Positions 4,321-23,927 of a stretch of DNA of 64,000 nucleotides are shown piece by piece. Location of the stretch: positions 62,001-126,000 of the forward strand of contig CAMXCT020001731.1 in the NCBI GenBank assembly GCA_947184155.2, read 5' to 3'. Source of the stretch: Cladocopium goreaui (taxonomy: Eukaryota; Sar; Dinophyceae; Suessiales; Symbiodiniaceae). Position numbers and translations under genes: made by a program. The notes beneath the pieces are model-generated. The model saw only the letters and a list, made by a program, of their open reading frames with translations, searched no databases and had not been told where the DNA came from. Position 1 is the stretch's first letter. Each line of letters opens with the position of its first letter.

Positions 4321-4488
4321 AACTATATAGGTATATATGAGATATTATGAGATCATATATATCATATATATATATCATATATATCATATATATCATATAT
4401 ATCATATATATCATATATATCATATATATCATATATGTATCATATATATCATATATGTATCATATATATATATATATATCATATATAT
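4321..4488. repeat. (ATATATC)n microsatellite, left flank of the retrotransposon
   Basis: Repeats of catatatat run up to the first base of the 5' LTR. The same motif resumes directly after the 3' LTR at 23852, so the element inserted into one microsatellite in an ABC intron. Confidence 0.93.
4484..4488. other. Target-site duplication, left copy (TATAT)
   Basis: TATAT directly precedes the TG of the 5' LTR and the same five bases follow the CA of the 3' LTR at 23852-23856. Five-base duplications are usual for Ty1/copia elements. The flank is itself a TATAT-rich repeat, so a chance match cannot be excluded. Confidence 0.7.
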
Positions 4489-4722
4489 TGCGAATGGGAG
4501 TACGGTAAGTCTTCAATCCGTAATCCCAGTATACATAGCCATCTTTCCAAGTGCCAAAGGACCACCAAAACCGACGGTCCTTTTGGCTCAAGACCCCGTA
4601 CTGCAGATTCCAAGCAGAAAAGAGCAATGCTGAAGCTCGCCTCCGGTTGACCATTGACAAACGCGAAACAGATCACTCAACTACGAGAACAGGGACACAT
4701 CATAGGGAACGTCCGATTCACA
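4489..4722 (+). repeat. 5' LTR (234 bp)
   Basis: The repeat starts TGCGAATGGGAG and ends GTCCGATTCACA. It matches 23618-23851 base for base by eye, which implies recent insertion. A splice-donor-like ggtaagt occurs at about 4504. A 12-base match to the dinoflagellate spliced leader lies at 4581-4592. No TATA box stands out. Confidence 0.96.
4581..4592 (+). promoter_or_regulatory. Spliced-leader-like sequence in the 5' LTR
   Basis: TTTTGGCTCAAG equals the last 12 bases of the published dinoflagellate spliced leader, and a CCG lies about 10 bases upstream where the leader also begins with CCG. The bases between differ. It could be a relict of a trans-spliced RNA captured by reverse transcription, or part of the LTR promoter. 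Confidence 0.5.
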
Positions 4723-4735
4723 GGTTATCAGCCGT
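4723..4735 (+). promoter_or_regulatory. Candidate tRNA primer-binding site
   Basis: GGTTATCAG directly follows the 5' LTR. It resembles the TGGTATCAG-type site of many copia elements (initiator Met tRNA 3' end) but lacks the leading T. It is also the complement of an anticodon arm reading CTGATAACC, which would suit half-tRNA priming as in Drosophila copia. The choice between these is open. Confidence 0.5.
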
Positions 4736-4783
4736 AGGTCTCCCACGGAGCCTGCGAGCGGGTAACTGCGGACCTTACAATCA

Positions 4784-7700
4784 ATGGCTGAAGAGGATAG
4801 TAGCGATAACGCATTCTCATTTGCTGGACATGCCGCCGCACCAGCTGCCGGCACGCAGTCAAATTCTTCACAGAGTTTCGATACTGGTGGAAGCGAAACC
4901 TCAGAACTGAGACCTAGCACATCCAGACGACCTCTGGTTGCCCCGAGAGGGAGATTAATGCCGACAATGCAAGCAATCGAAGACAGGGACAGTACACCTG
5001 GAAAGAGAAGATCGTCCGCACGACAATCGTCGCCTCCGACGACTCCGAGGACTAAGGCGAAGCCTACATCTTCGAATCCGCCTTCACCGATTCAGGACGC
5101 TACACCATCAGGAGTAGGATCTTTTCAACAAGTGAATGCTCCATCAAGTGGTAGCGATGTCTTCACTGCCTACCAGAGTGAACTATCAGAGTATAAAGCA
5201 TCACTGGGCAGGGCTACTGAAGAAGAATCTATGCTTCAAGCGAGATTAACCGAAATGGCCGCCTATGCCGACCAACAATTCAACTACCTGGAGAACACCA
5301 CTCATCATGAGATGACATCGATGGCTCGACAGCTTCAAGCCCTGAATTCTGAACTGCTCGCCGCACAACAAGAGGACGAAGGAGCAACTTACAGGATTGA
5401 AGAGCTGGAGAGATATCGAACTATGTCAAACGAAGCAGCATCCCATCTGGAACATCGATACTCACAATTGAGATCTGAATTCAATGAACAAATGGGACAA
5501 GCGAATGCAATCATGGTACATGTAGGTACAGATGCAAGTGCCCGCATCAATCAACTCAGATTGGAACTGGAAAACGCGGAGATGAATGCAAAGCAGGAAG
5601 CACTAGCTGTCGGATATGCCAATGACCAAACGTGTGCACTTCACATTGAGATGCTCGAGATTGCGAACCAGAACCAAACGATGAAGAGCACTATGTCATT
5701 GAACATCAGACGGTTGGAAACGGAGCTCGATTCTGCTGATGCGAAGAGGGAAGACATCATGAGAGAACTTCGTAGCGATCTGAGATCCGAACACAACAGA
5801 TATTCCGAATGTGAACACCATCTAGCTCTGGAGGAATCACAACTACAGTTACAGGTTATCCGCAATGAAGGACTGCAATCACAACTGGCCACATCGGAGA
5901 ATCGGTATTCTGAAGAGTTGACCTCTAAGGTGAGCGGGATGCGTGATATGAGGATCATGGAACTACGATCTGAACTACACATGAAACAAAGCCTTTTGGA
6001 TCGGATGCAACAACAATTGACTGAATCGAAGAATCAGTATCATGAACTCTCGTGCCAACAAGCAAGACATGCATCTCCAAGTGTTTCTCCATCACATGGG
6101 ATTTACTATGAGATGTATAATCAATTGCATAGTGAGTACGAGAAGGCCATCAAATACAAGGATGACGTTGACGCTATGCTGCGAAGGACTAGAGCTGAGC
6201 TTATCGACAATGAAGCACTGCTTAAGACCTATCAAAGCTCATATGATTCATTGGGAAAGAAGTACCAAGATGCTTTGGGAAGGATTGACTTCATGAGCAA
6301 CAATCCAAACAATTCCAGTAATCTATTTGACGCTTTGCACAATGAAATCAGTGACAGAGATGAGGCAATCAATCGACTTAACACTGAAGTTGCTACACAG
6401 GAGGAATCCCTTAATCGTGCTCATCGTGATGCCGGTAAAGCTATCAGTATGCTGAATGATAGACGACTCATCATCAAGGGAGCAACAGATTATTCGATTC
6501 CTGAAAGTCATCTGACAGAAATGCACCATCTTGTCAGTGAACGTCAAACAGAGGTGGAGGAAATGTCGAACACCATCGCTGCATTGAAGCTCGAGAACCA
6601 GGCCGCTTCTTCCTCCGCACAGAACCTGCAAGCTATAATGTATGGATCATACAACAATGCTTTTCCCAGGGACGAGTGCGAAGAGAAGTGTGCCAAATTG
6701 AAAGCTGAACTGGAAGAAATGAAACAGGAGAAGAAGTCAGAAGTCAATGCTCTTCGTGACGAACTAAAGAAGATGGAAGAGCGAAAGGACTACTACAAGA
6801 ATAACTTTTCCCAAGCTGAAGATCGTGCCAACGACGAAGAGCAAGAGTTTCGTGCCGAAGCCGAAGCTTTTGAGAAGCTCAGGAACGAATACAACACCAA
6901 CGTCATTGAATTGGAGAACCTCGAAAAGGACAAATCCAAATCCTCTATCTCTCAGAGAGAAGCGGAGAAGATCAACCTACAACCTTGGCCTAAGACAACT
7001 GAACTTTCGTCTTGGAAAGGAAGTGTCGTTCATGAAGTTTGTGTTGCAAGTGGAGATAGACATTATGATGATTGGAAAGCGTGGCTGGCTCCATGTCTCA
7101 CAGACCAGCCGGATTTGGAAACATTAGCCAAAGCACCTGAGGTGAGATTCCAATCCATTGATGCCAAGCTCTCCAATGCTTTGAGGAAAGTCATCGACAA
7201 TGCTGGAGACAAGTCTATGCAAGTGAAGTATGACATGTCCATGAAGAACCAAATGTATGGGAAGAGTGGAGACTTCATTAAGGGACGAGAACTATTCGCA
7301 ATGATCTTGATTAGCTTCAAGTCACCTGATCATACTGAAGTTCTCTACAACGCTCATCATTTGTACATGTTCAGCTACTATGGAGATGACCAACTCGAGG
7401 CCTTCTACAACAAGTGGCTTGACATCATATACAACATGAAACATGATGATCGGCCTTCTGCAAATTCCCTGCGTGACACATTGTTCCGGAAAATTGAACA
7501 CTCAAAACTCATGCACTTTGATATCAGCCGGTACCGTACATTCGATGAAGGGCATCATGAGAAGACTTATGAATTCCTAATCGGCATGATCAAAGGATAC
7601 ATTGCCAGAGGGAAACAAGAAAGACTGTTAAAAGACAGGGAACGCGCAGTCAAGATATCGATGTCATCCAACAAAACTACACCAGCATTGGAAGATGACG

Positions 7701-8446
7701 TGAAGACTGCTGCTCCCACCAAAACCAAGAAGGAAGACGCTGCAGCCGCTTCATCCTCCGGTGATCCTCCCAAAGGGAAGCCGAAGGCTAAGGCGAAAAG
7801 TGAAGCTGCTTCTGTTCTTCCTACGCCTTCTCCGAAGTCTCATGCCGACAAGAACAAGAAAGGCAAAGGCAAAGGAGGGAAGGGAAGATCATCATCACCC
7901 ACCGACAAGAAGAAGATCTTTTGCAACTACTTCTTCAATAAAGGTGGATGCAATAAAGGTGATAAATGTCTATACAGTCATTCTCAGAAAGTCTATGATG
8001 CCAAGATGAAGGATAAGAAGGGTAGAAGTCGAAGCAGAGATTCATCTGGAAGGAGGAGTAAGGGAAGTTCTTCATCTGCTGGACCGAAGAAGAAAGTATG
8101 CTGGCAGTGGCAAAAGGGTACATGTACTTTTGGAAGCAAATGCAAATTTCTACATGCAGACCAGTCACCATCAGCATCCTCCGAAAGAGCCTGCAACAAG
8201 GACAAGAAGAAGAAAGCGGTCCCCATTACCATTGATTCCTTCTTTGATAGCGACACTGAAGATGCAAAGGATTATTCCTCACCGAGGGTAGCCAGCGCAA
8301 AGAAGTCTTCTGATGTTCGCAAGATCACGTTCGACATGGAACCTGGGATCCACAAGATTCATATCAAGGACTACCCGGAGGAGTGCCCAAACGAATTTAT
8401 CGTGACCCCAACAAGCCTTATGCTTTCAGGGAGATCGAAGATCTGA
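4784..8446 (+). CDS. gag: Gag-like protein with coiled coil and two CCCH zinc fingers
   Basis: This 1220-codon frame starts at the first good ATG after the LTR. The N-terminus is Ser/Thr/Pro-rich. Residues about 130-740 are a long Glu/Gln/Arg/Leu-rich coiled coil. A more globular part follows (about 745-960), then a Lys/Ala/Ser-rich basic linker. Two C-X7/8-C-X5-C-X3-H fingers lie near residues 1046 and 1105 (key residues C, C, C, H in each). CCCH fingers bind RNA; copia Gag usually has a CCHC zinc knuckle, so this is unusual. The protein likely packages the element RNA. Its length is far above the usual 300-500 residues. The frame stops at 8446 and coding continues in another frame from about 8383. 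Confidence 0.85.
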   Translation: MAEEDSSDNAFSFAGHAAAPAAGTQSNSSQSFDTGGSETSELRPSTSRRPLVAPRGRLMPTMQAIEDRDSTPGKRRSSARQSSPPTTPRTKAKPTSSNPPSPIQDATPSGVGSFQQVNAPSSGSDVFTAYQSELSEYKASLGRATEEESMLQARLTEMAAYADQQFNYLENTTHHEMTSMARQLQALNSELLAAQQEDEGATYRIEELERYRTMSNEAASHLEHRYSQLRSEFNEQMGQANAIMVHVGTDASARINQLRLELENAEMNAKQEALAVGYANDQTCALHIEMLEIANQNQTMKSTMSLNIRRLETELDSADAKREDIMRELRSDLRSEHNRYSECEHHLALEESQLQLQVIRNEGLQSQLATSENRYSEELTSKVSGMRDMRIMELRSELHMKQSLLDRMQQQLTESKNQYHELSCQQARHASPSVSPSHGIYYEMYNQLHSEYEKAIKYKDDVDAMLRRTRAELIDNEALLKTYQSSYDSLGKKYQDALGRIDFMSNNPNNSSNLFDALHNEISDRDEAINRLNTEVATQEESLNRAHRDAGKAISMLNDRRLIIKGATDYSIPESHLTEMHHLVSERQTEVEEMSNTIAALKLENQAASSSAQNLQAIMYGSYNNAFPRDECEEKCAKLKAELEEMKQEKKSEVNALRDELKKMEERKDYYKNNFSQAEDRANDEEQEFRAEAEAFEKLRNEYNTNVIELENLEKDKSKSSISQREAEKINLQPWPKTTELSSWKGSVVHEVCVASGDRHYDDWKAWLAPCLTDQPDLETLAKAPEVRFQSIDAKLSNALRKVIDNAGDKSMQVKYDMSMKNQMYGKSGDFIKGRELFAMILISFKSPDHTEVLYNAHHLYMFSYYGDDQLEAFYNKWLDIIYNMKHDDRPSANSLRDTLFRKIEHSKLMHFDISRYRTFDEGHHEKTYEFLIGMIKGYIARGKQERLLKDRERAVKISMSSNKTTPALEDDVKTAAPTKTKKEDAAAASSSGDPPKGKPKAKAKSEAASVLPTPSPKSHADKNKKGKGKGGKGRSSSPTDKKKIFCNYFFNKGGCNKGDKCLYSHSQKVYDAKMKDKKGRSRSRDSSGRRSKGSSSSAGPKKKVCWQWQKGTCTFGSKCKFLHADQSPSASSERACNKDKKKKAVPITIDSFFDSDTEDAKDYSSPRVASAKKSSDVRKITFDMEPGIHKIHIKDYPEECPNEFIVTPTSLMLSGRSKI

Positions 8447-8742
8447 CCGATGACCAGTCCAAATCTGACAGCGCATTAGGTCAAACTCGGGCAAGAGCAA
8501 AAGCTATCATCATGAAGAAAGATGGACTCCATCGTTATGTGGATGAAGTGAGGATTATCATTGGCCCGAAATTCGACATGCTGATCAAGTTGGATGGTGA
8601 CAAAGAAGATCTGATTTTCCTGGAGGAACTTGTTGAACATGAAGCCGAAAGATCCCTCGAGAAGTCCAAGAATCTCATGTGCATTTCACTACCAGTACAA
8701 GCCAAAGATCGAAGATTCATTCTTGACTCTGGTAGCGGCTGA
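8383..8742 (+). CDS. pol: Pol fragment: linker and protease active-site segment
   Basis: This frame overlaps the end of the Gag frame by 64 bases and carries the polyprotein onward (YRDPNKPYAF, then EEARSLEKS-like sequence, then FILDSGSG). D-S-G at about 8724 fits the catalytic triad of a retropepsin-type protease. A TGA follows at once, and the expected downstream half of the protease is in the next frame. There is no ATG at its start, so I read it as part of one polyprotein broken by indels rather than a separate gene. An assembly error or programmed shift would look the same. Confidence 0.65.
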   Translation: MPKRIYRDPNKPYAFREIEDLTDDQSKSDSALGQTRARAKAIIMKKDGLHRYVDEVRIIIGPKFDMLIKLDGDKEDLIFLEELVEHEAERSLEKSKNLMCISLPVQAKDRRFILDSGSG

Positions 8743-9832
8743 AAGAATGAACTTGAAGAAAAGGATTTGTGATCCCATTATGTTCCACACTGCGAACGGC
8801 TCAACTGCCACCCAAACAGAAGTCGAAATTGATTTGGGAACCTTTGACGAGATCTCACAAGCCTACGTCCTTGACGACACTCCATCAGTAATGTCTCTTG
8901 GAAAGCGATGCATGGAAGAAGGATACTCCTTCGTGTGGCCTTCCGGTAAGATGCCATTCATGATCACAAAGGACGGGGAACGTATTGATCTGACGATTCA
9001 TGACAACATCCCCTACGTTGATCTTGGAACATACGAATGCACTCCATATGAATGCCATCATACATCGAAGATTCATGATCTACTTGGACATCTTCAAGAG
9101 TGTATCGACAACTTCGATGACCTAGATGAGATAGGCCAAGCATCTCGAAGAGTATATCTGGACGGAGAAAGTGGGTTTGAGGTATCAGTTGACGATCAAA
9201 AGGATTCCCAACACGTCAAAAAGCTCAAGGTGAAGAAGAAAAGGAAGGCAGGGAACCGACGGAGGAAGACGGCATCACCTGGAGAAGAAATCCCATCTGA
9301 TGATGAAGGATATCCGCCTGGAACTCCATATGATGGTCCCCCAGACGGCGAAGAAACCGATCTAGAGGATGAAGGACATGGAGTCCCTGAAGAAGTCGCT
9401 GAAGGTGACGAAGATGATATCGAAATCGATGTTGTTGAAGGTGAATCCAGGGTAGCCAAGAGAGGAACACTCAAAAGGGAAGCAAACAGTCTGAATCACA
9501 AGTTGACTCACAGATACAAGAATCCATACTGTGATTCCTGCATTCGCGCAAAGATGAAACACTTCAAGACTCGTAGAGGATCATACAAAAGGGAACTCAA
9601 GAAGTTTGGCGACCTTATCACTTTCGATGCTGTTGATACATCCAAGGTTCACGATGATGTATTGGTACTTGAGAAGGAAGTGTTAGTCGTCAGAGACTGT
9701 TTTACAGGAATCATTGGTGCCTATCCGTCCGACAGAATGGCTAAAGATGATGTAGTCAGAGCAGTGAAACAATTCATCGGCGCCAAGAAGGTCAGACAGG
9801 CATTTTCTGATCATGCTCCACAAAGGAATTGA
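8630..9832 (+). CDS. pol: Pol fragment: protease C-terminal half and integrase N-terminal half
   Basis: Useful coding starts near 8740, where it continues from the DSG of the previous frame. MFHTANGSTATQTEVEIDLG and SLGKRCMEEGYSFVW match the protease flap and helix region of dinoflagellate copia proteins. An acidic linker (about 9290-9440) leads to the integrase zinc-binding region (LTHRYKNPYCDSC, with H and CxxC) and the catalytic core. The first catalytic Asp is in ITFDAVD (about 9619) and the second in FSDHAP (about 9809). The frame closes at 9832. One extra A in the caaagg run after the second Asp would account for the shift. Confidence 0.75.
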   Translation: MLNMKPKDPSRSPRISCAFHYQYKPKIEDSFLTLVAAERMNLKKRICDPIMFHTANGSTATQTEVEIDLGTFDEISQAYVLDDTPSVMSLGKRCMEEGYSFVWPSGKMPFMITKDGERIDLTIHDNIPYVDLGTYECTPYECHHTSKIHDLLGHLQECIDNFDDLDEIGQASRRVYLDGESGFEVSVDDQKDSQHVKKLKVKKKRKAGNRRRKTASPGEEIPSDDEGYPPGTPYDGPPDGEETDLEDEGHGVPEEVAEGDEDDIEIDVVEGESRVAKRGTLKREANSLNHKLTHRYKNPYCDSCIRAKMKHFKTRRGSYKRELKKFGDLITFDAVDTSKVHDDVLVLEKEVLVVRDCFTGIIGAYPSDRMAKDDVVRAVKQFIGAKKVRQAFSDHAPQRN

Positions 9833-12620
9833 AGCGATGAATGAGATGAAGATTCCAATTGATCATTCACTACCTGGAAGACCTCAGACAAATTCCATCG
9901 CCGAAAGAACGAATCAATTCATTCTGACTGCAACATCTACATGTCTGTTGGAAGCCGGACTACCACCATGTTTCTGGAGAACTGCAATCCTTTGTGTATG
10001 CCATCTACTCAATGTAGAACCCAATGATGATGAACTCAGTGCTTGGTGCAAACTCCATGGAACTGACTTTGCTGGAAAACTCATTCCCTATGGTGCTCGT
10101 GTGAACTACAAACCTCCGAAGACGAGAGAGGCAGGACAACTTCATAAGTTTGGACCTGATTCTATACCGGGAGTTTTCGCAGGATATCACATTGGCCCAG
10201 GGATGCATTGGTCTAGACAATACAAAGTCTGGCCATTGAGTGAGTTTGTACATCAGAACCTTGGTGATGATGCCAGTAAACCAGAACATCGTCTTCTCAA
10301 ACCTCATCTGACCGAGAAAGTAGAGATGGTCACTCCATTGACATTCCCATGTAAACAAGAGTACGAGAGAGTGAACACGACCTTGGAGGGAATGAAAGAA
10401 AGAGAACTCCTTGACGGTGAACCATCCAAAAGACCTCAAGATGATGAAGAAGACGAACAAGATGAAGACGATGATGAGCTTGATGACGGAGACAATGGTG
10501 GACCTGGACCAAGTGGTGGAAAAGCCTCAAAGGAACCTCTCGAAGCCTCTGAGAGTATCTTTGACGACAAGGACCCGGAAGAAATGACCTTAGAAGAACT
10601 TATAGATGCACAACCAGATCATTGGAGGTCAGGCAAAGCCGGGGACGGGAAGATATATCTCAATGACGACGGCGAAAAGGTCAAATTGAATGTCAAGGGA
10701 AACCCCTACAAGATTGGAGAAGATGGTAGAAGACTCTTCAAAACGTCGTTGAGACCTAAGGGCACCTACTCTCCAGAAGAATGGCGAAAGCTATCTCAAT
10801 CTGACCGAAACGTCATCCTCAAGGCCGAGAAGAAGAAGTTGGAAAAGAAGGAGGCTGATGAAAAGAACAAAAGAAAGGTTGAAGAAGTGAAGAGGAAATC
10901 ACTGAAGAAGGAGAAGAAAGATTCAAAGAAGGACAAGGACATGCCGAAGTCCAAAGATGATGACGAGAAAGACGATGATGGTGGGCAGGACGATCCGCAC
11001 TCAAAGTCGAAGAAATCCGATGCAGGTGTTGGTGAGGTGATGAAGAACAAAGTTACTTTGCCTTTCACATGTACGAGTGCATATCTTGACATGTACGACA
11101 TCGTTGATGACGATGACATTCATGGGAAACGTTACATTGATTGTCGGAAGATCAGAAAGAATGCTGATGCAAGCCCATGTTCCGATGCTTCTACTGACGT
11201 CCCGGACGACGAGGAATATCTCACCGAATGGGACGAATGGTCGGAGGTCGAGAAGGGCCGTGGTCCGAAAGCATCGTGGAGCGGTGAAGTTTGGAACACT
11301 TTGTCAGGTACGATCTCAAAATCCTCCACGGCAACGCCGGGTGAATCGACCATGATCAAGAATGGCAAGTGTGTTAACATCAAGAATGTGAAGAACACAA
11401 CCATCGACGATGATGACGATCTCATAGCATTCCCTACTATGCCATGTACCTCCGCACCCAACAACATTCATCGAACCAAAGTACCTCCTGAAGGTCTGGG
11501 GGGAAAGCTCTTCAACGCCATGGTTTCAAGACCAGTCGGGAGAGCAGAGATTGAATCCGATCCTAAAGCAAAGGAGGCGATGCTCAAGGAGTGGAAAGGA
11601 CTCCGAGACCAAGAAGTGTTTGATTTCTCCATAGTCCGAGAATACGATGATGTAGTTGCGGAAGCAAAGAGGGACAAGAAGGAGATACATATGGCTAGAG
11701 TCCATGGCATATGCGTAGAAAAGAACTACCAATTGCCTGAAAGCAATCCAGGTCGAAAGTTCAAAGGACGAGGTGTTCTACTGGGCAATCAAGTGAAGAA
11801 CCAACATTGGGAGGCAGCATTCTTTCAAGATTTAGGGAATTCCCCTGCTTCCTTCGAAGCCTCACGGTGGGCCGATTTCTTTGGATGTCTTCCTGGGCAT
11901 TCTGTCAAGCTCGCAGATGCGATCCAAGCCTACATCCAGGCGAAGTTGAAGGGGCCTTTATGCTGGGTGGAGTTACCTACCGACGCTTGGCCACCCGAGA
12001 TTCAATACTGGAAGTATCGACGTCCTGTCGTGAGACTTGACAAAGCTCTATATGGACATCCCGATTCAGGCACGATGTGGGAACAACATTGTGATAAGAA
12101 GGTCCAAGAAATTGGTTTTAAGCCCATTGGAGAGGAATGGCCATCAATGTATTTTCATGACAAGCTCAAGCTTTTGTTGGTGATCTATGTGGATGACCTC
12201 AAATTAGCTGGACCATCTGAAAATTTGGCCAAAGGTTGGGAGATGTTGCGTACGGTTTTACGCATCGAACCCGAAACTGATTTGGGTCTTTATCTTGGAT
12301 GTGTGCTTTCCCAAGGTGAGACTCAACTCCATAATGGAAAGAAAGTCAAATCCATAACCTATAACATGGAAGGATTGTTAAAGTTATCGGTAGAAAAGTA
12401 TCTTGACATAATTGATAAGGACACAAAATTGAAAAAGGTTTCGACTCCAAGCCTTCCAGAGGAAACAAAATGCAGCCCTTACCGAGCTCCTTCCGATGGA
12501 AAGCGCAAAGTCGAGTGTCCGTGGTGCGCACATTCTTTCGATCGGAGATGTCGGCTCTCAACGAGACCGTCAACTCACGTCCCGGCCAAGATAGTGAGAT
12601 GCCGAATCGGGGGAATCTAG
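9813..12620 (+). CDS. pol: Pol fragment: integrase C-terminal half and reverse transcriptase
   Basis: This 935-codon frame begins in the integrase core; the third catalytic residue is the Glu of SIAERTNQ (about 9903), roughly 30 residues after the second Asp and so slightly short of the usual 35. A long charged Lys/Glu/Asp linker follows (about 10430-11040). Reverse transcriptase covers about 11480-12400. Its first catalytic Asp is in LADAIQAYIQAKL (about 11915), then LDKALYGHPDSGTMW, and the YVDD box is at about 12186-12197, all typical of copia RT. The frame ends at 12620 while RNase H continues in another frame from about 12540. Confidence 0.85.
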   Translation: MLHKGIEAMNEMKIPIDHSLPGRPQTNSIAERTNQFILTATSTCLLEAGLPPCFWRTAILCVCHLLNVEPNDDELSAWCKLHGTDFAGKLIPYGARVNYKPPKTREAGQLHKFGPDSIPGVFAGYHIGPGMHWSRQYKVWPLSEFVHQNLGDDASKPEHRLLKPHLTEKVEMVTPLTFPCKQEYERVNTTLEGMKERELLDGEPSKRPQDDEEDEQDEDDDELDDGDNGGPGPSGGKASKEPLEASESIFDDKDPEEMTLEELIDAQPDHWRSGKAGDGKIYLNDDGEKVKLNVKGNPYKIGEDGRRLFKTSLRPKGTYSPEEWRKLSQSDRNVILKAEKKKLEKKEADEKNKRKVEEVKRKSLKKEKKDSKKDKDMPKSKDDDEKDDDGGQDDPHSKSKKSDAGVGEVMKNKVTLPFTCTSAYLDMYDIVDDDDIHGKRYIDCRKIRKNADASPCSDASTDVPDDEEYLTEWDEWSEVEKGRGPKASWSGEVWNTLSGTISKSSTATPGESTMIKNGKCVNIKNVKNTTIDDDDDLIAFPTMPCTSAPNNIHRTKVPPEGLGGKLFNAMVSRPVGRAEIESDPKAKEAMLKEWKGLRDQEVFDFSIVREYDDVVAEAKRDKKEIHMARVHGICVEKNYQLPESNPGRKFKGRGVLLGNQVKNQHWEAAFFQDLGNSPASFEASRWADFFGCLPGHSVKLADAIQAYIQAKLKGPLCWVELPTDAWPPEIQYWKYRRPVVRLDKALYGHPDSGTMWEQHCDKKVQEIGFKPIGEEWPSMYFHDKLKLLLVIYVDDLKLAGPSENLAKGWEMLRTVLRIEPETDLGLYLGCVLSQGETQLHNGKKVKSITYNMEGLLKLSVEKYLDIIDKDTKLKKVSTPSLPEETKCSPYRAPSDGKRKVECPWCAHSFDRRCRLSTRPSTHVPAKIVRCRIGGI

Positions 12621-15085: not shown

Positions 15086-17880
15086 CTGATCTCGTGGAAG
15101 GAACTGTATCTCATGAGCACAAGTTCGATGGATGCATGTATGGTTTGAAATCACAATTCCAAGAGACTCCCAAACCAATCAAGAAACCATGGAAGATTGT
15201 CACATGGGGGGTATCGTTTCCAAAACTACGTAGGAAGTGTGATCGCCGTCATGACCATGCAGAATGTGCCGGTAGGGAAACTCGCATAACTCAAGTTTAC
15301 ACCAAATGGATCGCCAAGATCATCATGAAAGGCATCAATGAACATGTGATCAAAAACAGTCCGTTTGTGAACATCAAAGTAAGAAAACAGTGGAAAATCG
15401 TCACGCCTGATGATGACTGGTTGAGTGTAATGTCTCGTGATTCAGAGAACGTCCGCAGTCACCCTATCAAGCTGGTGACGGCAACTGCCTGTGTTGTACG
15501 AGGGCCCGACGCCATCGACCATTTGCTCGAGCGCTCTCTTCTGCACTGGTACTTTTCGAGATCAACATCACCTTTGACAAGATCTTCGTGGTCTTCGGCG
15601 TTTCTGTGGCATCTGCTTTCTGGACTCAACGACAATTTGCTGTTCCGCGACCAACGGTCCGTACACTTGTTGGAGTTGATCGGGGCATTATCACGTTGCT
15701 ACTTGTCGATACCAAACGAACCACTGAAAATCACAATGACTGAAGGTGTTGATTTGAAGTCTTTAGGACAATTCTCAAGCAAAAGAATCACAATTGCTCA
15801 GACGATTCTCAAAGAGACATATGAGAAAGTGATCACAGCCAAAGTACCACCTCCATTCAGGGACACACGAGATGCAGGACCCCGCTTGCTTGCCTCAGAG
15901 GAAACTGTCAATCAATGGATTCGATTTGGCATGCCTCCAGTGATCGTATATTCTGCATATTTTGCAAATACCAGGTACACCAACGAAGCCACGGGTGAGG
16001 CACTGGAATTAGCATACAAGATTTTGCAGAGGTCACAGGACTCTGAGAAGGAATGCTTAGGCTGGGAATTCGTATCGAGAGGATCAAGATTTGTGAAAGT
16101 CTTTACCTCGAAGTGCCCCTACGAGGAAAACATGGTAGGTATGTTGATGGATGCAAGCATTCATTCCAGACTTGATGAGCTGTGGATCGTCCTAACCAAA
16201 GGACATTTTCCAGAACCTTTTGATGATGTGCACAGTGCCGCATTTGCTGAAGCGAAGATCAGGGACATGAAGCAATTGTATAGAGGCACACCATCATTCA
16301 ACACAGAACCGAGGGCAACGTCGTGGTTAGCTGTCACACGAACTGCAGAGTACTTCAAAGTCATGGACGAATTGGCGAAGGTCAATCCCAAATCCCCATC
16401 AGACAATGATAACTACTTTGCTACAATGCGACAGATGGTGGAGACCCACATCAAGCTTTTGGGTTTCGCATTGAGATACCACAACCAGCACAACCCTCAA
16501 GATTTGATCATTCTCCAAGATGTGATGAGAGACGTTGTGGAGTTCGAAACAGAACGCCCGAAAGGAAGGAGTGCAGCACAGAATCATTTCCTATGCTTGC
16601 TCACCTTAGGCTCGACAATTGAACGCCACAAGACTAGTGCTCGAGGAGACATGAATTTTGCCAAAATTGCTGCCTGGACAGACATCCAGACGTTGGTCGT
16701 CAATGTGTTTGACATCCCGCTGGGAATTCTGATTGGATTGGGCTACAATGTTACCATTGCAGATGAAGGTGCGAGATACTCCGAAAAGGAAAGACGCCAT
16801 GCCTGTCACAGCCAACTCAAGGACTTCATCACAACGATGACCGAGACGCAGGCAGGAACTGGTGGCAATATGCACAACTTCGACGGATGGGACATACCTC
16901 TCCTGATCAACGACAACAGACAGCCGGATGAACTGGATGCATGGAACAATGAAGAACCAGCCTGGGCACAAGATGATCCCACTGGAGGACAAAGTGCATC
17001 TGGAGGAACAACATCTCAAGGTGGACCACAAGCCCAACTCACGGCAACGCCGGGAGGCAGTGTTCAACCGAAGAAGATGCCCAGACCATCCGCAAGCAGT
17101 GGAGCTACCTCATCATCACATTCCGCTTTTAGAACTGGACCTGGACCAGCACCATCAAGTGGACAAAAGGAAGCGGAAAAAGAGGACAAGGACAAGACTC
17201 CGACAGTTGACTGGGTGAAGAGGAAGAAACCATCAAATGTGGACACGTACATCCACGCCGCCGAGGACTATGACCATCAAGAACAACGGATCACATTCCT
17301 GAGATCGGGCAAGGATTTTGTCGTATCCACTATCGGAGGTCCTCACTCCACTCATGTCTATGGATCAAGCCTCGTATGGAAACAATTTCTGAGACGTTTG
17401 ACCTTCCATGCAGCACTTTCATTTAACATCCTAACTGAGGGACAGTTGGACGCCCAGATGCTCAACGAGAACGATCACGAATGGCTGAAGCTGTACCACT
17501 ACCTCACAACAACTACCGAACTTGTCAGATGCAAAGGATATCCGGTGACGGAAGTCTTGGCAATGCTGACATTGGGAGTTCAGGAAACAGTGGAGGGTGG
17601 CATTCGAAGGAGGCTCAAAAGCCTGAGCAATCAGATTGGTCAATTTGTTGCAGTGAAACCATGGATTGGGACATGGGATGAACTGGGAGGTCAGGTGAGG
17701 ATGAACAAGTGTCTCATCCTGACTGATTTGACATATCAGACGAAGTCAAGCTCCAGGGTCACTCATGACATTGAGCAGGCCTCAACAACATGGGATTTGC
17801 CTCCGTCAAAGTCTATCAACTCCCATATGAATCTCTTGAGGACCCAGCAGCCTTCCTGCAATTGGCCACAAATGCACTGA
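15082..17880 (+). CDS. Accessory protein: second half of methyltransferase-like domain and unknown domains
   Basis: The first 100 residues continue the domain of the previous frame. KFDGCMYGLKS and PIKKPWKIVTW, then a CDRRHDHAEC segment, resemble the region after motif VIII in phage-type C5 methyltransferases, where a DxCxYG...KPT pattern is common. Residues about 150-620 are a large helical region I cannot assign. About 640-710 is a Gly/Ser/Pro/Thr-rich linker, followed by another globular domain (about 720-900). The ATG at 15082 sits inside the upstream stop, so re-initiation is possible, but the domain clearly spans both frames and a one-base indel is simpler. The last 30 residues are probably off-frame. 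Confidence 0.65.
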   Translation: MTDLVEGTVSHEHKFDGCMYGLKSQFQETPKPIKKPWKIVTWGVSFPKLRRKCDRRHDHAECAGRETRITQVYTKWIAKIIMKGINEHVIKNSPFVNIKVRKQWKIVTPDDDWLSVMSRDSENVRSHPIKLVTATACVVRGPDAIDHLLERSLLHWYFSRSTSPLTRSSWSSAFLWHLLSGLNDNLLFRDQRSVHLLELIGALSRCYLSIPNEPLKITMTEGVDLKSLGQFSSKRITIAQTILKETYEKVITAKVPPPFRDTRDAGPRLLASEETVNQWIRFGMPPVIVYSAYFANTRYTNEATGEALELAYKILQRSQDSEKECLGWEFVSRGSRFVKVFTSKCPYEENMVGMLMDASIHSRLDELWIVLTKGHFPEPFDDVHSAAFAEAKIRDMKQLYRGTPSFNTEPRATSWLAVTRTAEYFKVMDELAKVNPKSPSDNDNYFATMRQMVETHIKLLGFALRYHNQHNPQDLIILQDVMRDVVEFETERPKGRSAAQNHFLCLLTLGSTIERHKTSARGDMNFAKIAAWTDIQTLVVNVFDIPLGILIGLGYNVTIADEGARYSEKERRHACHSQLKDFITTMTETQAGTGGNMHNFDGWDIPLLINDNRQPDELDAWNNEEPAWAQDDPTGGQSASGGTTSQGGPQAQLTATPGGSVQPKKMPRPSASSGATSSSHSAFRTGPGPAPSSGQKEAEKEDKDKTPTVDWVKRKKPSNVDTYIHAAEDYDHQEQRITFLRSGKDFVVSTIGGPHSTHVYGSSLVWKQFLRRLTFHAALSFNILTEGQLDAQMLNENDHEWLKLYHYLTTTTELVRCKGYPVTEVLAMLTLGVQETVEGGIRRRLKSLSNQIGQFVAVKPWIGTWDELGGQVRMNKCLILTDLTYQTKSSSRVTHDIEQASTTWDLPPSKSINSHMNLLRTQQPSCNWPQMH

Positions 17881-19799
17881 ACTTTCTTCGCAACAATGCT
17901 GACACACTCGCCAACATCACCGTGCATATCTGGATCTCATTCGCATCATTGATTAGAGGGCAGAATCGAATCTTGGTCCCAGAGGACAACTATGCCAAGG
18001 ACCTGGCTGAGATCGTGGTGGAAATCAGCCAATTCTCACCCACACCAATTTTTGTCAACATCTTGAAGGACGCCCGCTTCCTTGGATCCCAATCATCGAT
18101 TGTTTCCATGGCTGAGGAGTTCGCCGAGATCTTGAGGAATAGAGGTATCATGCATTCTACACATGAAAGATTCTGGAAACAGATTTATGCATGTGGAGCT
18201 GAACCTTTCTATTGGAAGCAGGGTGACGGCAAAGAAATCATTTGGGCCATGTTAGAGAAATCCCTGATGCGACAAAAGGTCTTCCTTCATTGTGCAATGG
18301 ATCATTATATGGTACACAACTTGAATGAGGAATGTGTCCATATAAACAATACGGGATTTGACCTCGAAACGATCAAGAGATGCACTGATCACCCAGGGGT
18401 CATCCCAAAACTCCGCAACAAAGAGACAGCGGATGCACAGACCGGATCCGCTGACATCATTGGTGGAATGAAGCACATGAAGGAGACGGGCCAGAGAAGG
18501 GCATGGACAGACATTCGACGGGGCGTATTCACCCCCGAACCACTGAATGATGCAGATGAACACTGTATTGAAGTGACTGAACATTCTGAGCTGATGTGCG
18601 ACACCTGCAAGTACCTCATTTCTGGTGACCCTCGCATGGACACAATCACCGAGAATCGCACCAGCTGTCTGAATTGCGCAAGCAACTGGACAAGATCAGG
18701 AACTTATGGTACTGAGGTCATCGGTATGGACGAATTTTCACAAGATGCCCGAATTGCCGCCAGACTCCTCAACGTCTACAACAACTGCATCGATTGGAGA
18801 GAACTTCATGCAGAACGGGACTTGAGAAGGTTCTTGCTGGCAGCCACATTGGCGATGCTTTCCGGGTACAAGACATCAAATGACGTCCTGAAGCAAGTAT
18901 CTCATCGAGGTGCGATCCGCATGCCTGCCTACATGGTGAAGGGTAAGTGCAGACGGAACCTGCTGTCTCAATTCTCAGTCCAACGTGAAACACGACGTGA
19001 GGACGATGATGACGGTGTCACCACGATTCGATGGTTCTACAGATTGCTCTGGGATGGAGGGAATGTTGCATACCATGACTACATGAAAACAGTGTTGACA
19101 AAAGAGGAGATCGAATCAATTCTACCCCTCAATGCTTCGGCAGAATACATCGGTGACATCTTTGAATTTTGGCTTGGAATGCTCGAGCTGGGAATTCAGT
19201 TCCCCACAATGTTCAATGGTTGGGGAAAGAACATCGATAGTTGCCTTGCTGGACTTGAAGAATCTTTCTGGCTATTCAGCAGCTCTTGTCGCCACACCGA
19301 AACCATCAACACGAAACGCAATCGATCAAGGAAAGCCTACATCCCTTCGGTCGAGAACGAGATGGTGATTGCGATTCTGAGAGAGGGGAAGATTTTTGAT
19401 CTGCTCATGCAAAAGGAGATCACAAGGATGCCCACTATTCCAACAGCGAACTATGATGACAATCCCGAATTGATTGAGATCTCATCCAGTGAAGATGAAG
19501 AAGATGAACCTGAGGTCGTTGAACCAGAAGAAGACCCTTCGTCGCCTACGGCGCGTGGTACTCGGATGGAACAAACTTCAGGCGAAACTGGCGCAGGGGA
19601 TGATGACATTGAGGTGGATGATGATGCGGAAGACATGGGGGTCAACCATCCGAGGCGAAGAAACGCCGAACGGAAGTTCGAATTCTCCGTGATCAGTTTG
19701 AGAAGGTGGTCACAGATGCATCGAATGTCAGATTTTGTCTGGGATGTGGAGGCAATCACAACATTGATGAATGCCAAGCACAAGACAACGAGGCAGTGA
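17790..19799 (+). CDS. Accessory protein with alpha/beta-like domain and CxxC zinc module
   Basis: This 669-codon frame takes over from the previous one within a 91-base overlap. Residues about 1-150 alternate predicted strands and helices (ITVHIWISFASL ... PTPIFVNIL ... GIMHSTHERFW), a pattern reminiscent of SGNH/GDSL-type folds, but I see no firm catalytic motif. Near residues 270-305 two CxxC pairs (LMCDTCKYL and SCLNCASN) suggest a zinc ribbon. The C-terminus is highly acidic (SSSEDEEDEPEVVEPEED). No function is assigned. The terminal 30 residues overlap the next frame and are probably off-frame. Confidence 0.6.
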   Translation: MGFASVKVYQLPYESLEDPAAFLQLATNALNFLRNNADTLANITVHIWISFASLIRGQNRILVPEDNYAKDLAEIVVEISQFSPTPIFVNILKDARFLGSQSSIVSMAEEFAEILRNRGIMHSTHERFWKQIYACGAEPFYWKQGDGKEIIWAMLEKSLMRQKVFLHCAMDHYMVHNLNEECVHINNTGFDLETIKRCTDHPGVIPKLRNKETADAQTGSADIIGGMKHMKETGQRRAWTDIRRGVFTPEPLNDADEHCIEVTEHSELMCDTCKYLISGDPRMDTITENRTSCLNCASNWTRSGTYGTEVIGMDEFSQDARIAARLLNVYNNCIDWRELHAERDLRRFLLAATLAMLSGYKTSNDVLKQVSHRGAIRMPAYMVKGKCRRNLLSQFSVQRETRREDDDDGVTTIRWFYRLLWDGGNVAYHDYMKTVLTKEEIESILPLNASAEYIGDIFEFWLGMLELGIQFPTMFNGWGKNIDSCLAGLEESFWLFSSSCRHTETINTKRNRSRKAYIPSVENEMVIAILREGKIFDLLMQKEITRMPTIPTANYDDNPELIEISSSEDEEDEPEVVEPEEDPSSPTARGTRMEQTSGETGAGDDDIEVDDDAEDMGVNHPRRRNAERKFEFSVISLRRWSQMHRMSDFVWDVEAITTLMNAKHKTTRQ

Positions 19800-22700
19800 T
19801 TGATGCAATTGTGCGCATGAGACTGATGATGGAGCAACAATCGAAATCCCCATCTTCTTCCGAAAGATCAGGAGCAGCTACAAGAGGAAGAAAGGACAAG
19901 CTCCCAAAGAAAGGGATTATGCCCGAAGGAAAGAGATGGAGAAGGACTAGGTTCACCGAGAAGGAGGAAGTCACCAAGAGTTTCTACAGTCAACCAGCAT
20001 TTATGTATGAAATTGGTGATCGAGAAGAAGGTGGATCTTTCCTAGTGAACGGAGTGGAAGTTCATCCTCCGGGCCAAGGCGTGAGAAATCGTCAGGAGCT
20101 TGATGCACTTGTCGAGAGAGCAGCCGAAGATTCTCCTCCAGTACTGCCAACAATCCAGGAGCTCAATGAACTGAACCCCAAGAGCGCAGACCAATTCCGA
20201 AAATGGATGGAAGAGCAACGATCCGAACATGGTACCAACTGGAACTTCCGTTATCTTCAACCGTATACCTACGGCCATGACGTTGGCGTTCTTCAAATGG
20301 CCCGACTATCTGGTGAAGAATACGTTGGAAATGGTTGGTGCAATGTCAAGAAGTACGCTGAGAATGAATGGATGGGAAGGAAATGGGACACACCTCAATG
20401 GGAAATTGATCTTTCAAAGAGGTTCAATGCCGCTCTTCGTCACTCCATTGGTTGTATCAAAGACACGAGAGGTCACTTTGGACTACCATGCGATGAAGCT
20501 GGATGGGTCAATGTTGAACACATCATGAAGTACGACCACATATGGAGAGATGGATACACCTTGGCAGGAACTTCAGAACCTGACTACAAGATCATTGTTG
20601 AAAGATGGGACATTTTCCAAAAGATCATTTTCGCTGAGTACAAGCAGAAGAGAAGGATCAGAGCACAGATCCTTGGTTTGAAAGTCACAAAAGGTGAATT
20701 GGAAAGATTCTTGAAAGCAGACAATGCATTCACGACGAGGATCAACCGCCAAAGACTGAGGATCGAGATCGGCAACGATGATCGAGAGATATGGCTTTGG
20801 CCAGTGGCGATCAGAGCACCGATGGCTCATTCCAGGATTCAAGGCGGAGTTCGAATCGACGACAGCAAAACCTCTTATTTGATGAACCCTGGTGTAGGAT
20901 ACACACTTGGAGGTGGTTTCCACTGCACGACATTTGAGTGCATAGCGCAAATCTTCAGAGAGGGCTTGCGCCCAGGAGGAGGAGGAGACCGAATCAATAC
21001 ATTTTTCGTACCATTCGCGCCATGGGATGAGAGGAGTCAATCGGTTTTGAGGTTCAGGAAGATTGAAGGTGCGGACTTGGTCTACATCTACATGTCATAT
21101 GAATCCATTGCCAAATTTGCTCCACGAGTTTCAGCAGATGGACACATCCTGGTGCAACAGACGATCCCCTTCAGTGCCTTTGATGCAGTATGGTATCATG
21201 ATTGGAGCAGCAAGGAGTACTATCGTCTGATGGTCACAAGAGGTTACGAACAACTCGTACTGTCTGTGAAGGATGCAAAGAAGATTGCAACCCTTGATCG
21301 ATTTGACAGCCTCCTCAAGAATGTTGTGCCTGATGATTCCTCGCCAGACCTGAGTGAGCTCCGCAAACTCATCGACATCAAGACAGCGCATGAAAGCTTC
21401 ACATGTCGACTTTTCCCACAACACAATGATTGGTATGATGCCATTGCATTGCTAGCACTTACTCATCGTCCGAACAAAGAAGGTCACAGACTTTGCCCTG
21501 CTTGTTTATGTGAGACTCCAGCGACATTATCGATTTGTGTATTCTGTAAGGGATACCTTGTCAGCCACGGATTCAGGAAACGTGTCGAGATCACTGTCGC
21601 CAGCATTCCGACTGCCGAACAACGTTCGCACGAGGATGACGTTAAGGAGCATGTCAAACAGACCTGGGAGAAGATCAAGATCGATCTGACAAGTGACGAT
21701 GAAGAGGATGTGGAAGTCGAACAAGACGAAGATGTCGAAATGAAAAGTCCGCAAGAAGAATCCCAACAAGACAATGACGATATGAGTCAAAAGTCGGACG
21801 TTGACGAGCTCAAATCGGAGAAGAGGGACTTCAGGAAGCGAGATGAAGTTGATGAATACCTCACAGAAGAACGTGAAAAGGCCGAGACAATAGAAGAGGA
21901 AGGAGCAGATGATGCCAACATCGACATCGGAGAGTACCATGCTGGAGAGGCAAGGAATGCCAACGTTGCATACCCCGCATGGATGAAGCGTGTAGAGTTT
22001 GGATCCAAAGTTCTACCTTCCGAACCATGTCAGATTGGCGACGCTCAACCCGACCTCATCAAGATCTTGTTGCTACAAATTGGAAACAACATACTCAGAA
22101 TTTACAGACACTTCCAACGGAATTTCTGTGACGATATTGAGTGTGGATGGCAGCAATTTCAGAGAAACCCTAGTTACAGATTGGACCTTGACCCCAGAGT
22201 TCCATACCTAGGGGAAGATGATGATGGACTTCTCATTGAGCCGACGGATGATCAGATGAGAGAGCTCTACGAGATGGTCGGCAACCCGAATGGGAAAGAC
22301 GATATGGGAGAAGAGGGCTTCACCAATGCGTATCATGGTTCCCTTATGTTCAAGAAGCTAGTCACGTACATATTGGAATGTGGATATGAATTCTCAGATT
22401 TGCAAATGATATTTAGCGATGAGAACATCCAACCACTGACAAGAGGTGACACTGCTGAAGAAGAAATGAGGAAATCTACGCTTGCCCGCAACTCTCTGGA
22501 TGCACAGTCTACATTTATTCGACGAGTGATCGCTGGGGCATATCAAGTGAATGCTGTCTATTTCTTCAGAAATGTGGATTATCAGGCTGCAGTGACACTA
22601 AACCCAGTCGACATTCTTTGTGCTTGCCGACCACAGCTCAGGCGCATCGCCGTCATGCATTTGATTCTACAGAATGGCCAACGATTGCCAGGACCATTAC

Positions 22701-23086
22701 TGAACAAGCTATGCGATGCGATTGAGGATCACAACAAAGGGAAGAAACGTGATGGACAGAGACCAAGATGGGGAGCACATATGACTGAGGCTCATGTAGC
22801 TGCAATTGCCTACATGCCTACGGCCGAGGATGTCCGCAGAACAGCGGAGGCCAAAGCAGAAGCCAAGGCAAAGGCCATGCCGAAACCCAGTGCTACTCCT
22901 GATGCAGGAACATCACACTCTGCCTCATCAACAGATGCCGGGGAATCTGCTCCATTACCAAAGCAGGCCCCAAAAGCACCTCCAAAAGCACCTCCAAAAG
23001 AACCACCACCGTGGAGAGAATGGGAAAACCGCGGAGCTGGCAGAGGGACACCTTCACATCGAGGTGGCGATTGGAATTCGAGCTAA
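19706..23086 (+). CDS. Accessory protein with zinc knuckle and Tpt1/KptA-like RNA 2'-phosphotransferase domain
   Basis: This 1126-codon frame starts with a zinc-knuckle-like C-X2-C-X3-H-X4-C (FCLGCGGNHNIDEC). Residues about 235-500 (20410-21210) follow the Tpt1/KptA order: LSK...LRH; GLPCDEAGWVNVEHIM; IRAPMAHS, aligned with RAxQGHS; GGGFHCTTFECIAQIFREGL, aligned with YHGT...I..GL; then an Arg aligned with R.HVH; and ADGHILVQQTIP near the end. Tpt1 uses NAD+ to remove a 2'-phosphate from spliced tRNA. The Arg and His positions persist, but QG, the G of HGT and HVH are changed, so activity is uncertain. An insert of about 60 residues splits the two lobes. A CxxC pair (LCPACLC ... CVFC) lies near residue 595, then acidic and Ala/Pro-rich tails. 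The start here is not ATG, so it probably continues the upstream frame. Confidence 0.75.
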   Translation: MVTDASNVRFCLGCGGNHNIDECQAQDNEAVIDAIVRMRLMMEQQSKSPSSSERSGAATRGRKDKLPKKGIMPEGKRWRRTRFTEKEEVTKSFYSQPAFMYEIGDREEGGSFLVNGVEVHPPGQGVRNRQELDALVERAAEDSPPVLPTIQELNELNPKSADQFRKWMEEQRSEHGTNWNFRYLQPYTYGHDVGVLQMARLSGEEYVGNGWCNVKKYAENEWMGRKWDTPQWEIDLSKRFNAALRHSIGCIKDTRGHFGLPCDEAGWVNVEHIMKYDHIWRDGYTLAGTSEPDYKIIVERWDIFQKIIFAEYKQKRRIRAQILGLKVTKGELERFLKADNAFTTRINRQRLRIEIGNDDREIWLWPVAIRAPMAHSRIQGGVRIDDSKTSYLMNPGVGYTLGGGFHCTTFECIAQIFREGLRPGGGGDRINTFFVPFAPWDERSQSVLRFRKIEGADLVYIYMSYESIAKFAPRVSADGHILVQQTIPFSAFDAVWYHDWSSKEYYRLMVTRGYEQLVLSVKDAKKIATLDRFDSLLKNVVPDDSSPDLSELRKLIDIKTAHESFTCRLFPQHNDWYDAIALLALTHRPNKEGHRLCPACLCETPATLSICVFCKGYLVSHGFRKRVEITVASIPTAEQRSHEDDVKEHVKQTWEKIKIDLTSDDEEDVEVEQDEDVEMKSPQEESQQDNDDMSQKSDVDELKSEKRDFRKRDEVDEYLTEEREKAETIEEEGADDANIDIGEYHAGEARNANVAYPAWMKRVEFGSKVLPSEPCQIGDAQPDLIKILLLQIGNNILRIYRHFQRNFCDDIECGWQQFQRNPSYRLDLDPRVPYLGEDDDGLLIEPTDDQMRELYEMVGNPNGKDDMGEEGFTNAYHGSLMFKKLVTYILECGYEFSDLQMIFSDENIQPLTRGDTAEEEMRKSTLARNSLDAQSTFIRRVIAGAYQVNAVYFFRNVDYQAAVTLNPVDILCACRPQLRRIAVMHLILQNGQRLPGPLLNKLCDAIEDHNKGKKRDGQRPRWGAHMTEAHVAAIAYMPTAEDVRRTAEAKAEAKAKAMPKPSATPDAGTSHSASSTDAGESAPLPKQAPKAPPKAPPKEPPPWREWENRGAGRGTPSHRGGDWNSS

Positions 23087-23583
23087 ACAGGACGCAACTA
23101 TGGATACAGAGGATGGAAATAGTGATATTTGACCTCTGCATAGGTCCTATTGCTGCGCATGTGGATCAGCAATCAATGCTCGAGATCGAACTCTTCTCTA
23201 TATCCGATGACTCTTGAGAGAAATCTGAACCGGCTAATTCACGGGAATCACATCCGAACCTTTTTTTTAGATACGATGCTATCTGAAACGTAATGCATCG
23301 TGGGTTGAATTTTGACTGCGGTCTGTGTCTCATTTCTTTGTCTTAGATGAGCAGGAGTGTAATCTCTAGCTCCACTTTCGTTTTCGTTTTCGTAGCTGAT
23401 GTCATGCATGTATGAAACCCTTTGCCGGCAACGCCGCTATGGGTGGATTTCAATGTCATGTACAGATGCTGAGTCAATTAGTTTAGACAGATGTAGACAT
23501 AGCAAGCCGCGGCGAGAACTTTCAACTCTCCATAATTAAATCAATGTAAATGCAGTAGAAGGGACTTTAAGACGGCTCTCCTG
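23087..23583 (+). other. 3' untranslated region of the retrotransposon
   Basis: About 500 bases lie between the last stop codon and the purine-tract region. No long open frame or repeat is seen. Confidence 0.7.
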
Positions 23584-23610
23584 CGCGTGACTGATCAAAT
23601 CAGTCATGCG
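23584..23610 (+). other. Hairpin next to the polypurine tract
   Basis: A 12-bp stem (11 Watson-Crick pairs and one G-T) with a CAA loop sits immediately before the G run that primes plus-strand DNA. It could mark the tract for RNase H or act in RNA packaging or 3'-end formation. Confidence 0.7.
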
Positions 23611-23617
23611 TGGGGGG
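23610..23617 (+). promoter_or_regulatory. Polypurine tract
   Basis: GTGGGGGG lies directly against the first base of the 3' LTR, the expected place for the plus-strand primer. Confidence 0.8.
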
Positions 23618-23851
23618 TGCGAATGGGAGTACGGTAAGTCTTCAATCCGTAATCCCAGTATACATAGCCATCTTTCCAAGTGCCAAAGGACCACCAAAAC
23701 CGACGGTCCTTTTGGCTCAAGACCCCGTACTGCAGATTCCAAGCAGAAAAGAGCAATGCTGAAGCTCGCCTCCGGTTGACCATTGACAAACGCGAAACAG
23801 ATCACTCAACTACGAGAACAGGGACACATCATAGGGAACGTCCGATTCACA
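23618..23851 (+). repeat. 3' LTR (234 bp)
   Basis: It is identical by eye to 4489-4722 over the full 234 bases, including the TG and CA ends and the spliced-leader-like 12-mer. Confidence 0.96.
23710..23721 (+). promoter_or_regulatory. Spliced-leader-like sequence in the 3' LTR
   Basis: TTTTGGCTCAAG again, at the same offset (92 bases) as in the 5' LTR. Confidence 0.5.
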
Positions 23852-23899: not shown

Positions 23900-23927
23900 G
23901 TTGGATTGGCTTTATCTTTCTGCGGAG

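Follow-up and report, generated by a model that had tools for sequence, protein, structure and literature searches.

Evidence for a multi-copy Ty1/copia family in Cladocopium goreaui, one member of which inserted recently, with a long C-terminal extension including Tpt1/KptA-like and C5-methyltransferase-like domains

The window analysed here is a stretch of 64,000 nucleotides of the dinoflagellate Cladocopium goreaui (contig CAMXCT020001731.1 of assembly GCA_947184155.2, positions 62,001 to 126,000, forward strand), and our subject is a Ty1/copia-type retrotransposon of 19,363 bp within it, at 4489-23851. The element lies on the plus strand between two long terminal repeats (LTRs) with TG...CA ends, delimited by LTR comparison: the 5' LTR (TGCGAA...TTCACA) at 4489-4722 and the same sequence as 3' LTR at 23618-23851, with 234/234 bp identity. 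A 5-bp target-site duplication, TATAT, flanks it at 4484-4488, within a CATATATAT-type repeat, and at 23852-23856; these flanks match, but an AT repeat surrounds them and taken alone the agreement has little weight. A polypurine tract (GGGGGG, plus strand, 23612-23617) adjoins the 3' LTR, and a 19-nt inverted repeat, TGACTGATCAAATCAGTCA, stands 5' of the tract at 23588-23606 (plus strand). A preliminary description of this DNA had placed a copia element at 4489-23851, with identical LTRs, target copies and purine tract, all of which was borne out. Its estimate of about four times the usual copia length is about right, at 19.4 kb against 5-6 kb.

All coding regions of the element are on the plus strand, and the longest open stretch on the minus strand has 175 codons. 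From the open reading frame (ORF) list and Pfam, gag occupies 4784-8443, its CCCH zinc fingers lying late in the frame (~7920-8160), followed by an aspartic protease region (8449-8742; Asp_protease_2 in relatives). A putative integrase region at 8777-10817 was assigned by eye from zinc-finger and DDE-type motifs, the latter at ~9420-10250; it lies upstream of the reverse transcriptase (RT) and is conserved, with no Pfam integrase match. The RT region, of Ty1/copia type, is at 11430-12458 and matched RVT_2 (PF07727) at 1.8e-9 with 38 bits (cut-off 31.6), a match also precomputed for most of 37 long relatives. RNase H motifs were placed by eye at 12608-13270. The copia pol order noted in the preliminary description stands for RVT_2 and the order of protease and RT, and its integrase part is a matter of motifs seen by eye without a Pfam hit.

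Beyond RNase H, the element continues into an extension of ~3,270 codons. This includes a linker region (13271-14368), a C5-cytosine-methyltransferase-like domain recognized by predicted fold (14693-15372), a mostly helical region (15391-17774) with the highest ratio of nonsynonymous to synonymous substitution (dN/dS), a conserved region (18300-19596), an RNA 2'-phosphotransferase-like (Tpt1/KptA) domain (20381-21260), a CxxC...CxxC zinc-ribbon-like stretch identified by eye (21500-21640), and an acidic linker with the C-terminal region (21641-23083), ending at a stop codon at 23084-23086.

In the window copy, the extension is divided among ORFs of 871, 932, 669 and 1126 amino acids that reach 23086. 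The preliminary description had given these four long frames with the same lengths, RNase H lying in the first; they are present, and they belong to one extension joined to gag-pol instead of being separate genes. No in-frame stops occurred in the four extension segments tested (13271-19598, 19643-23083, own frames). Seven frame changes interrupt the window copy, near 8430, 8739, 9826, 12542, 15073, 17775 and 19620, and single ORFs span them in 11, 18, 25, 49, 98, 52 and 85 relatives, respectively. These relatives came from protein searches that yielded 120, 37 and 133 proteins (120 of the last listed), and in the first homologue search only the 7,993 candidates with the most words in common were scored. 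Two relatives illustrate the continuity: P0133 has one ORF of 5,944 amino acids from w6458 to w22807, and P0128 one of 4,558 amino acids from w9554 to w23113. Among 277 proteins, 54 ORFs contained the RT region, of which at least 22 align past 14700 and at least 6 past 20500; these linkage counts are lower bounds because contig ends and frame changes cut ORFs. Since single frames of relatives bridge all seven frame changes, the four frames are, as judged from predicted translations, pieces of one gag-pol-extension polyprotein. The same continuity ruled out separate extra ORFs or genes. The frame changes of the window copy may be assembly indel errors or young decay, both of which are possible. 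Relatives of pol were found in Symbiodinium sp. KB8 and S. microadriaticum; together with the spliced-leader relics described below, they indicate a dinoflagellate host, probably of the Symbiodiniaceae. No relative was confirmed in viral contigs or genome contigs, where 1, 39 and 84 stretches matched a pattern.

The element belongs to a family in the host genome (1.166 Gb in 6,202 contigs). The LTR query gave at least 29 matches, 20 of which form ten same-strand pairs, including the window pair; the nine unpaired matches lie outside the copy comparison. Seven of the other pairs are spaced 19.0-19.9 kb apart and two are longer (22.5 and 24.4 kb). Pieces of all nine other copies were read, and one of them, C596, was read without its 5' end (beyond 204899), so that gag, protease and 5' LTR are outside the comparison there. 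The whole extension, in order, was present in 9/9 of these copies, and gag through C-terminus in 8/9, the ninth being the partly read C596. Among the 29 matches there were no LTR pairs at the short spacing of a block-free element. The preliminary description had suggested that the block moved as part of the element, and had proposed a search for several LTR-paired copies with the same block, of which nine were found; it had named as contrary outcomes copies lacking the block or a block occurring once as host exons, neither of which was seen among the LTR-paired copies.

We considered whether the extra block could be a host gene or a nested insertion that one copy happens to enclose within its LTRs. 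To have 10 kb beyond RNase H is unusual, and gene capture by LTR elements is known, usually in one or few copies (PMC7264820). However, the block is in 9/9 other copies, shares one frame with pol even in relatives with as little as ~57% pol identity, and is under purifying selection, and we regard this explanation as having a negligible chance of being correct. Host exons or a single-copy insertion were ruled out by the 9/9 linkage together with the selection.

Identity within LTR pairs was 100% in the window copy, 99.1% in C666, 99.6% in C314, 99.1% in C502, 99.5% in C4524 and 99.6% in C3214, and was lower in C557 (85.8%), C2479 (79.7%) and C2224 (81.5%). These last three are perhaps mosaics of family members, formed by recombination or by template switching between subfamilies. 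Flanks of 5 bp are equal in seven of the nine elements read at both ends (window, C666, C314, C2479, C502, C4524 and C3214), an agreement that repetitive DNA makes easier by chance, and are unequal in C557 and C2224. Silent divergence between the window and the other copies had medians of 0.08-0.47 by segment while six LTR pairs are at least 99% identical, so we interpret the family as several older subfamilies that moved recently. Two copies are also rearranged: C2224 (1129196-1136201) has an internal duplication of the integrase-RT part, and in C596 (195613-200927) ~5.3 kb of other sequence separates RNase H from the linker.

The extension is under purifying selection like that on gag-pol. 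We calculated dN/dS with our own script for the Nei-Gojobori method, comparing the window with up to nine copies, using codons only within tblastn matches of at least 50% identity and dropping out-of-frame codons; all pairs share the window copy and so are not independent. Median dN/dS was 0.01-0.13 across the extension, compared with 0.03-0.09 across gag-pol. Within gag-pol, medians were 0.09 for gag (eight copies), 0.08 and 0.05 for integrase, 0.07 for RT and 0.03 for RNase H. The extension had medians of 0.11 in the linker, 0.09 and 0.01 in the methyltransferase-like domain, 0.13 in the helical part, 0.06 in the alpha/beta domain, 0.07 in the next part, 0.07 before the Tpt1-like domain, 0.10 within that domain and 0.08 in the C-terminal part. 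Because selection acts on the block, we consider it a retained part of the element that moves along with the rest.

These data bear on the possibility that the extension is hitchhiking or decaying, with no role in the life cycle. In five distant relatives most of the extension has evolved faster than pol, with 24-33% identity in the part after the methyltransferase-like domain versus 56-69% in pol; by region, distant relatives retain 70-88% identity in RNase H, 44-57% in the methyltransferase-like core and 21-28% after that core. All nine other copies have frame changes, and 18 in-frame stops were met across them, gag included. Yet dN/dS was at most 0.17 in all segments and pairs except the linker (up to 0.28), and key residues are kept in 9/9 copies and most aligned relatives, so that a functionless extension appears very unlikely. 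Slightly less likely still, in our judgement, is that the extension plays the part argued for the post-pol ORFs of plant elements, namely an envelope-like or movement function. The position would suit, since env-like ORFs also lie on the sense strand between pol and the 3' LTR (PMC7264820), but the extension is in frame with pol and holds an RNA-repair enzyme fold. General Pfam scans, in which transmembrane segments were not scanned, gave no envelope-like family.

Several lines of evidence link 20381-21260 to Tpt1/KptA. Pfam matches to PF01885 were weak and recurrent, below the 26-bit cut-off (window 17.5, P0135 20.8, P0011 25), and were precomputed for part of the relatives. Aligned with hhalign to seven KptA proteins, the domain scored 96.6% (E 4.9e-10) compared with at most 1.4% for ten shuffles, and the motifs LRH, KxRF, IRA..HS and YHGT aligned to those of KptA. 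The 17 best matches of the predicted structure were all Tpt1/KptA entries, and the predicted fold is two-lobed, with the RNA lobe included. Sequence searches of the PDB with A3 and P0135 gave weak, unrelated matches only. The Arg-His-Arg-Arg tetrad, which in Tpt1 contacts the 2'-phosphate (PMC6333775), corresponds to codons beginning at 20438 (Arg), 20441 (His), 20759 (Arg) and 20990 (Arg), and further family motifs include Arg at 20813 and His at 20921. Alignment with hhalign placed the third position at the KxRF motif. The fourth is beyond the aligned part and was set by the GL...R motif. All four are kept in the window and in 9/9 copies, and in aligned relatives (A4) were found in 26/28 (first Arg), 28/28 (His), 24/29 (third Arg) and 27/27 (fourth Arg). 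Since the four positions hold in the window and 9/9 copies, the enzyme looks competent in the window family, and less certainly so in distant relatives.

The methyltransferase-like domain is more cryptic. Its predicted fold matches C5-cytosine methyltransferases, being Rossmann-type with C5-methyltransferase topology. A Cys codon at 14888-14890 (GPCTGGS) and a Glu codon at 15044-15046 (ELPRG), conserved in 59/61 and 60/61 relatives, match the motif IV Pro-Cys nucleophile and the motif VI Glu, and a Cys/His cluster lies near the domain end. In the predicted model these motifs are placed at strands 250-254 and 306-311. Motif VI keeps the Glu only, and the frame change at ~15073 falls within the domain in the window copy. 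Searches with PF00145 found no match with E up to 1 or, in other scans, up to 5. Elsewhere, the host genome contains at least 125 PF00145 matches, mostly stop-free, fitting the long interspersed nuclear elements (LINEs) and DIRS elements bearing DNA methyltransferases (DNMTs) that were described in PMC5890265.

Within the LTR, the most conserved part resembles the dinoflagellate spliced leader (sequence taken from PMC12014239). The 3' part of the leader, TTTTGGCTCAAG, lies on the plus strand inside the 5' LTR at 4581-4592 and in the 3' LTR at 23710-23721. We aligned 13 of the 20 paired LTRs, representing ten elements, and found the leader end, (T)TTTGGCTCAAG, at LTR position ~92-115 in 13/13, with a full 15-nt relic in the 3' LTR of C557. 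The alignment had 81/234 invariant columns, and its longest invariant run, TTTGGCTCAAGA, is that of the leader end. When the window LTR was shuffled 2,000 times, one shuffle reached the same score for the spliced leader. Spliced-leader relics are known in retrogenes (PMC12014239, PMC3229502); a conserved relic in an LTR is not reported in the available portions of those two papers. The leader end is invariant as if kept by trans-splicing and strand transfer.

Sequences flanking the elements hint at a simple-repeat target preference. In 18 flanks of 50 bp from nine elements, the simple-repeat fraction was 0.22-1.0 (mean 0.61), compared with a mean of 0.018 in 2,000 window 50-mers. Repeat types were CATA, TATC and TA (window flanks 4439-4488 and 23852-23901; C666, C557, C314, C2479, C502, C4524, C3214 and C2224), and the flanks of C4524 were weakest (0.24 and 0.22). 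At the inner edge of the 3' LTR, the purine tract was present in nine of ten three-prime ends. The exception is C502 (locus L035), where the 3' LTR starts differently and the hairpin and purine tract are absent, apparently through a small deletion. In C3214 the inverted repeat differs, yet by eye it can still pair: one change is matched on the opposite arm, and another leaves a G-U.

The internal part begins with a putative primer binding site, GGTTATCAGCCGTAG (4723-4737, plus strand), whose 15 nt are invariant in 9/9 five-prime ends read. Its complement, CTACGGCTGATAACC, is like a tRNA anticodon arm and ends just past the loop, and ARAGORN found no tRNA genes in the window. Drosophila copia is primed by a half-tRNA. 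A comparable cycle can be proposed here, in which element RNA would start in the LTR and be trans-spliced with the host spliced leader, the leader copy in the LTR would aid first-strand transfer, and a cleaved half-tRNA would prime at the binding site. Metal-independent nucleases leave RNA with a 2',3'-cyclic phosphate; once 2H enzymes have opened this, a 2'-phosphate is left, the substrate that KptA clears away (PMC9503650). The Tpt1-like domain, with NAD+, would clear 2'-phosphates from cleavage or repair on the primer or genomic RNA, after which RT could start or read through. Primer-end repair is suggested because the element would depend on a cut tRNA and carries a KptA domain, and repair of the genomic RNA is the alternative; that repair of primer or genome RNA is the main role of the domain is a tentative view, and one we lean away from more than towards. 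For the methyltransferase-like domain, a possible role is modification of the cDNA, which has also been proposed in other Symbiodinium retrotransposons.

A different role, somewhat unlikely in our judgement, is one in host conflict, with the Tpt1-like domain working as an ADP-ribosyltransferase whose targets would be RNA ends, DNA or protein. KptA is in the ADP-ribosyltransferase superfamily, whose viral members are mostly fast-evolving and thought to be conflict-related (PMC9503650), and some distant relatives of our element have lost the third tetrad Arg. The full two-lobed fold with its RNA lobe and the tetrad kept in the family's copies (PMC6333775) favor RNA repair instead. Taken jointly, these proposals would describe a virus-like polyprotein of ~6,000 residues in which Tpt1 fixes tRNA-half primers and repairs RNA, a cryptic methyltransferase marks cDNA, the host spliced leader is functional in the LTR and the integrase aims at AT-rich microsatellites, giving four host couplings in one element; as a complete account, this is improbable.

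Overall, we interpret the window element as a recently inserted member of a multi-copy dinoflagellate Ty1/copia family that has kept a C-terminal extension including Tpt1/KptA and C5-methyltransferase-like domains, with a probability of roughly 85%. Several results count against this interpretation. Intactness from end to end was shown for neither the window copy nor any of the nine other copies, each of which has frame changes. The third tetrad Arg is lost in five of 29 relatives, the most distant among them (P0090, P0098, P0102, P0133 and P0135, mostly distant, with a less sure alignment there). Foldseek alone against the PDB gave no significant match for either the Tpt1-like or the methyltransferase-like model. 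Every step of the mechanism is inferred. In the methyltransferase-like domain, the glycine-rich S-adenosylmethionine (SAM) motif I (FxGxG) is absent, its position being taken by L-(M/L)-C-(A/S)-E, and hhalign against ten C5-methyltransferases (E. coli Dcm and nine from phages) gave 0.16%, no better than shuffles; one run aligned 15 columns only, around the PC motif.

Because the PF00145 and hhalign profile tests fail, we call this domain methyltransferase-like and do not file it as a member of the C5-cytosine methyltransferases; profiles do not confirm the match of the predicted fold. With motif I missing, motif VI reduced to its Glu, and neither profiles nor Foldseek giving a significant match, there is a substantial chance, a little short of even, that 14693-15372 is not a working cytosine methyltransferase and is instead another Rossmann-type enzyme or a methyltransferase fold that lost SAM binding and only binds nucleic acid.

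Two features lie beside the element in the window. A long AT-rich tandem array is shortly 3' of it, at 24334-24517, and an open frame of 345 amino acids on the plus strand (34778-35815), glycosyltransferase-like by eye only, is perhaps host coding.

Giant LTR elements of at least 20 kb, such as Ogre and Burro, occur in other lineages with other extra content. Compared with Ty1/copia elements of 5-6 kb, the window family is ~19 kb and has a conserved ~3,270-codon extension after RNase H. It shares with Ty1/copia elements, including those activated by heat in Symbiodinium microadriaticum (PMC11453091), RVT_2, the order of protease and RT, 5-bp duplications and TG...CA LTRs. SymbioLINE-Dnmt and SymbioDIRS-Dnmt3 (PMC5890265) are likewise dinoflagellate retrotransposons with a (putative) cytosine methyltransferase, but those belong to the LINE and DIRS classes and their DNMT is detectable with Pfam, whereas the domain here is cryptic, in a Copia element and beside Tpt1; Symbiodinium Copia elements are described in that paper as without any DNMT domain. 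KptA has been reported in phages and some RNA viruses, and the polyprotein KptA of positive-strand RNA viruses is also proposed to act in RNA repair (PMC9503650); those are RNA viruses, and the word 'retrotransposon' is never used in the main text of that paper as available. Orchid Ty3/Gypsy elements with an m6A RNA demethylase domain (PMC9289625) similarly gained an RNA-modification enzyme, and differ in being of Gypsy type with one recently acquired domain. Plant LTR elements with additional ORFs (env-like, Grande, Retand; PMC7264820) also have extra code between pol and the 3' LTR, in sense or antisense, whereas the window extension is in frame with pol. In titles and abstracts of open-licence literature, Tpt1/KptA appeared in no retrotransposon, and searches on giant or additional-ORF copia elements, dinoflagellate copia elements with methyltransferases, spliced-leader relics in LTR elements and microsatellite preference found none that describes this family.

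With an RNA-repair enzyme domain and a DNA-methyltransferase-like domain in one huge protein, the family suggests that virus-like complexity can arise in simple retrotransposons. It shows that an extension which roughly doubles the coding part of a copia-type element can be retained through long divergence. An RNA-repair enzyme domain in a copia element makes it testable whether half-tRNA primers need end repair, and the view that Symbiodinium Copia elements are without DNMTs would need another look in the light of a cryptic methyltransferase-like domain. That the LTR is best conserved at its spliced-leader relic is a direct clue to how LTR elements live in a trans-splicing lineage, and the family offers a natural system for insertion into microsatellites.

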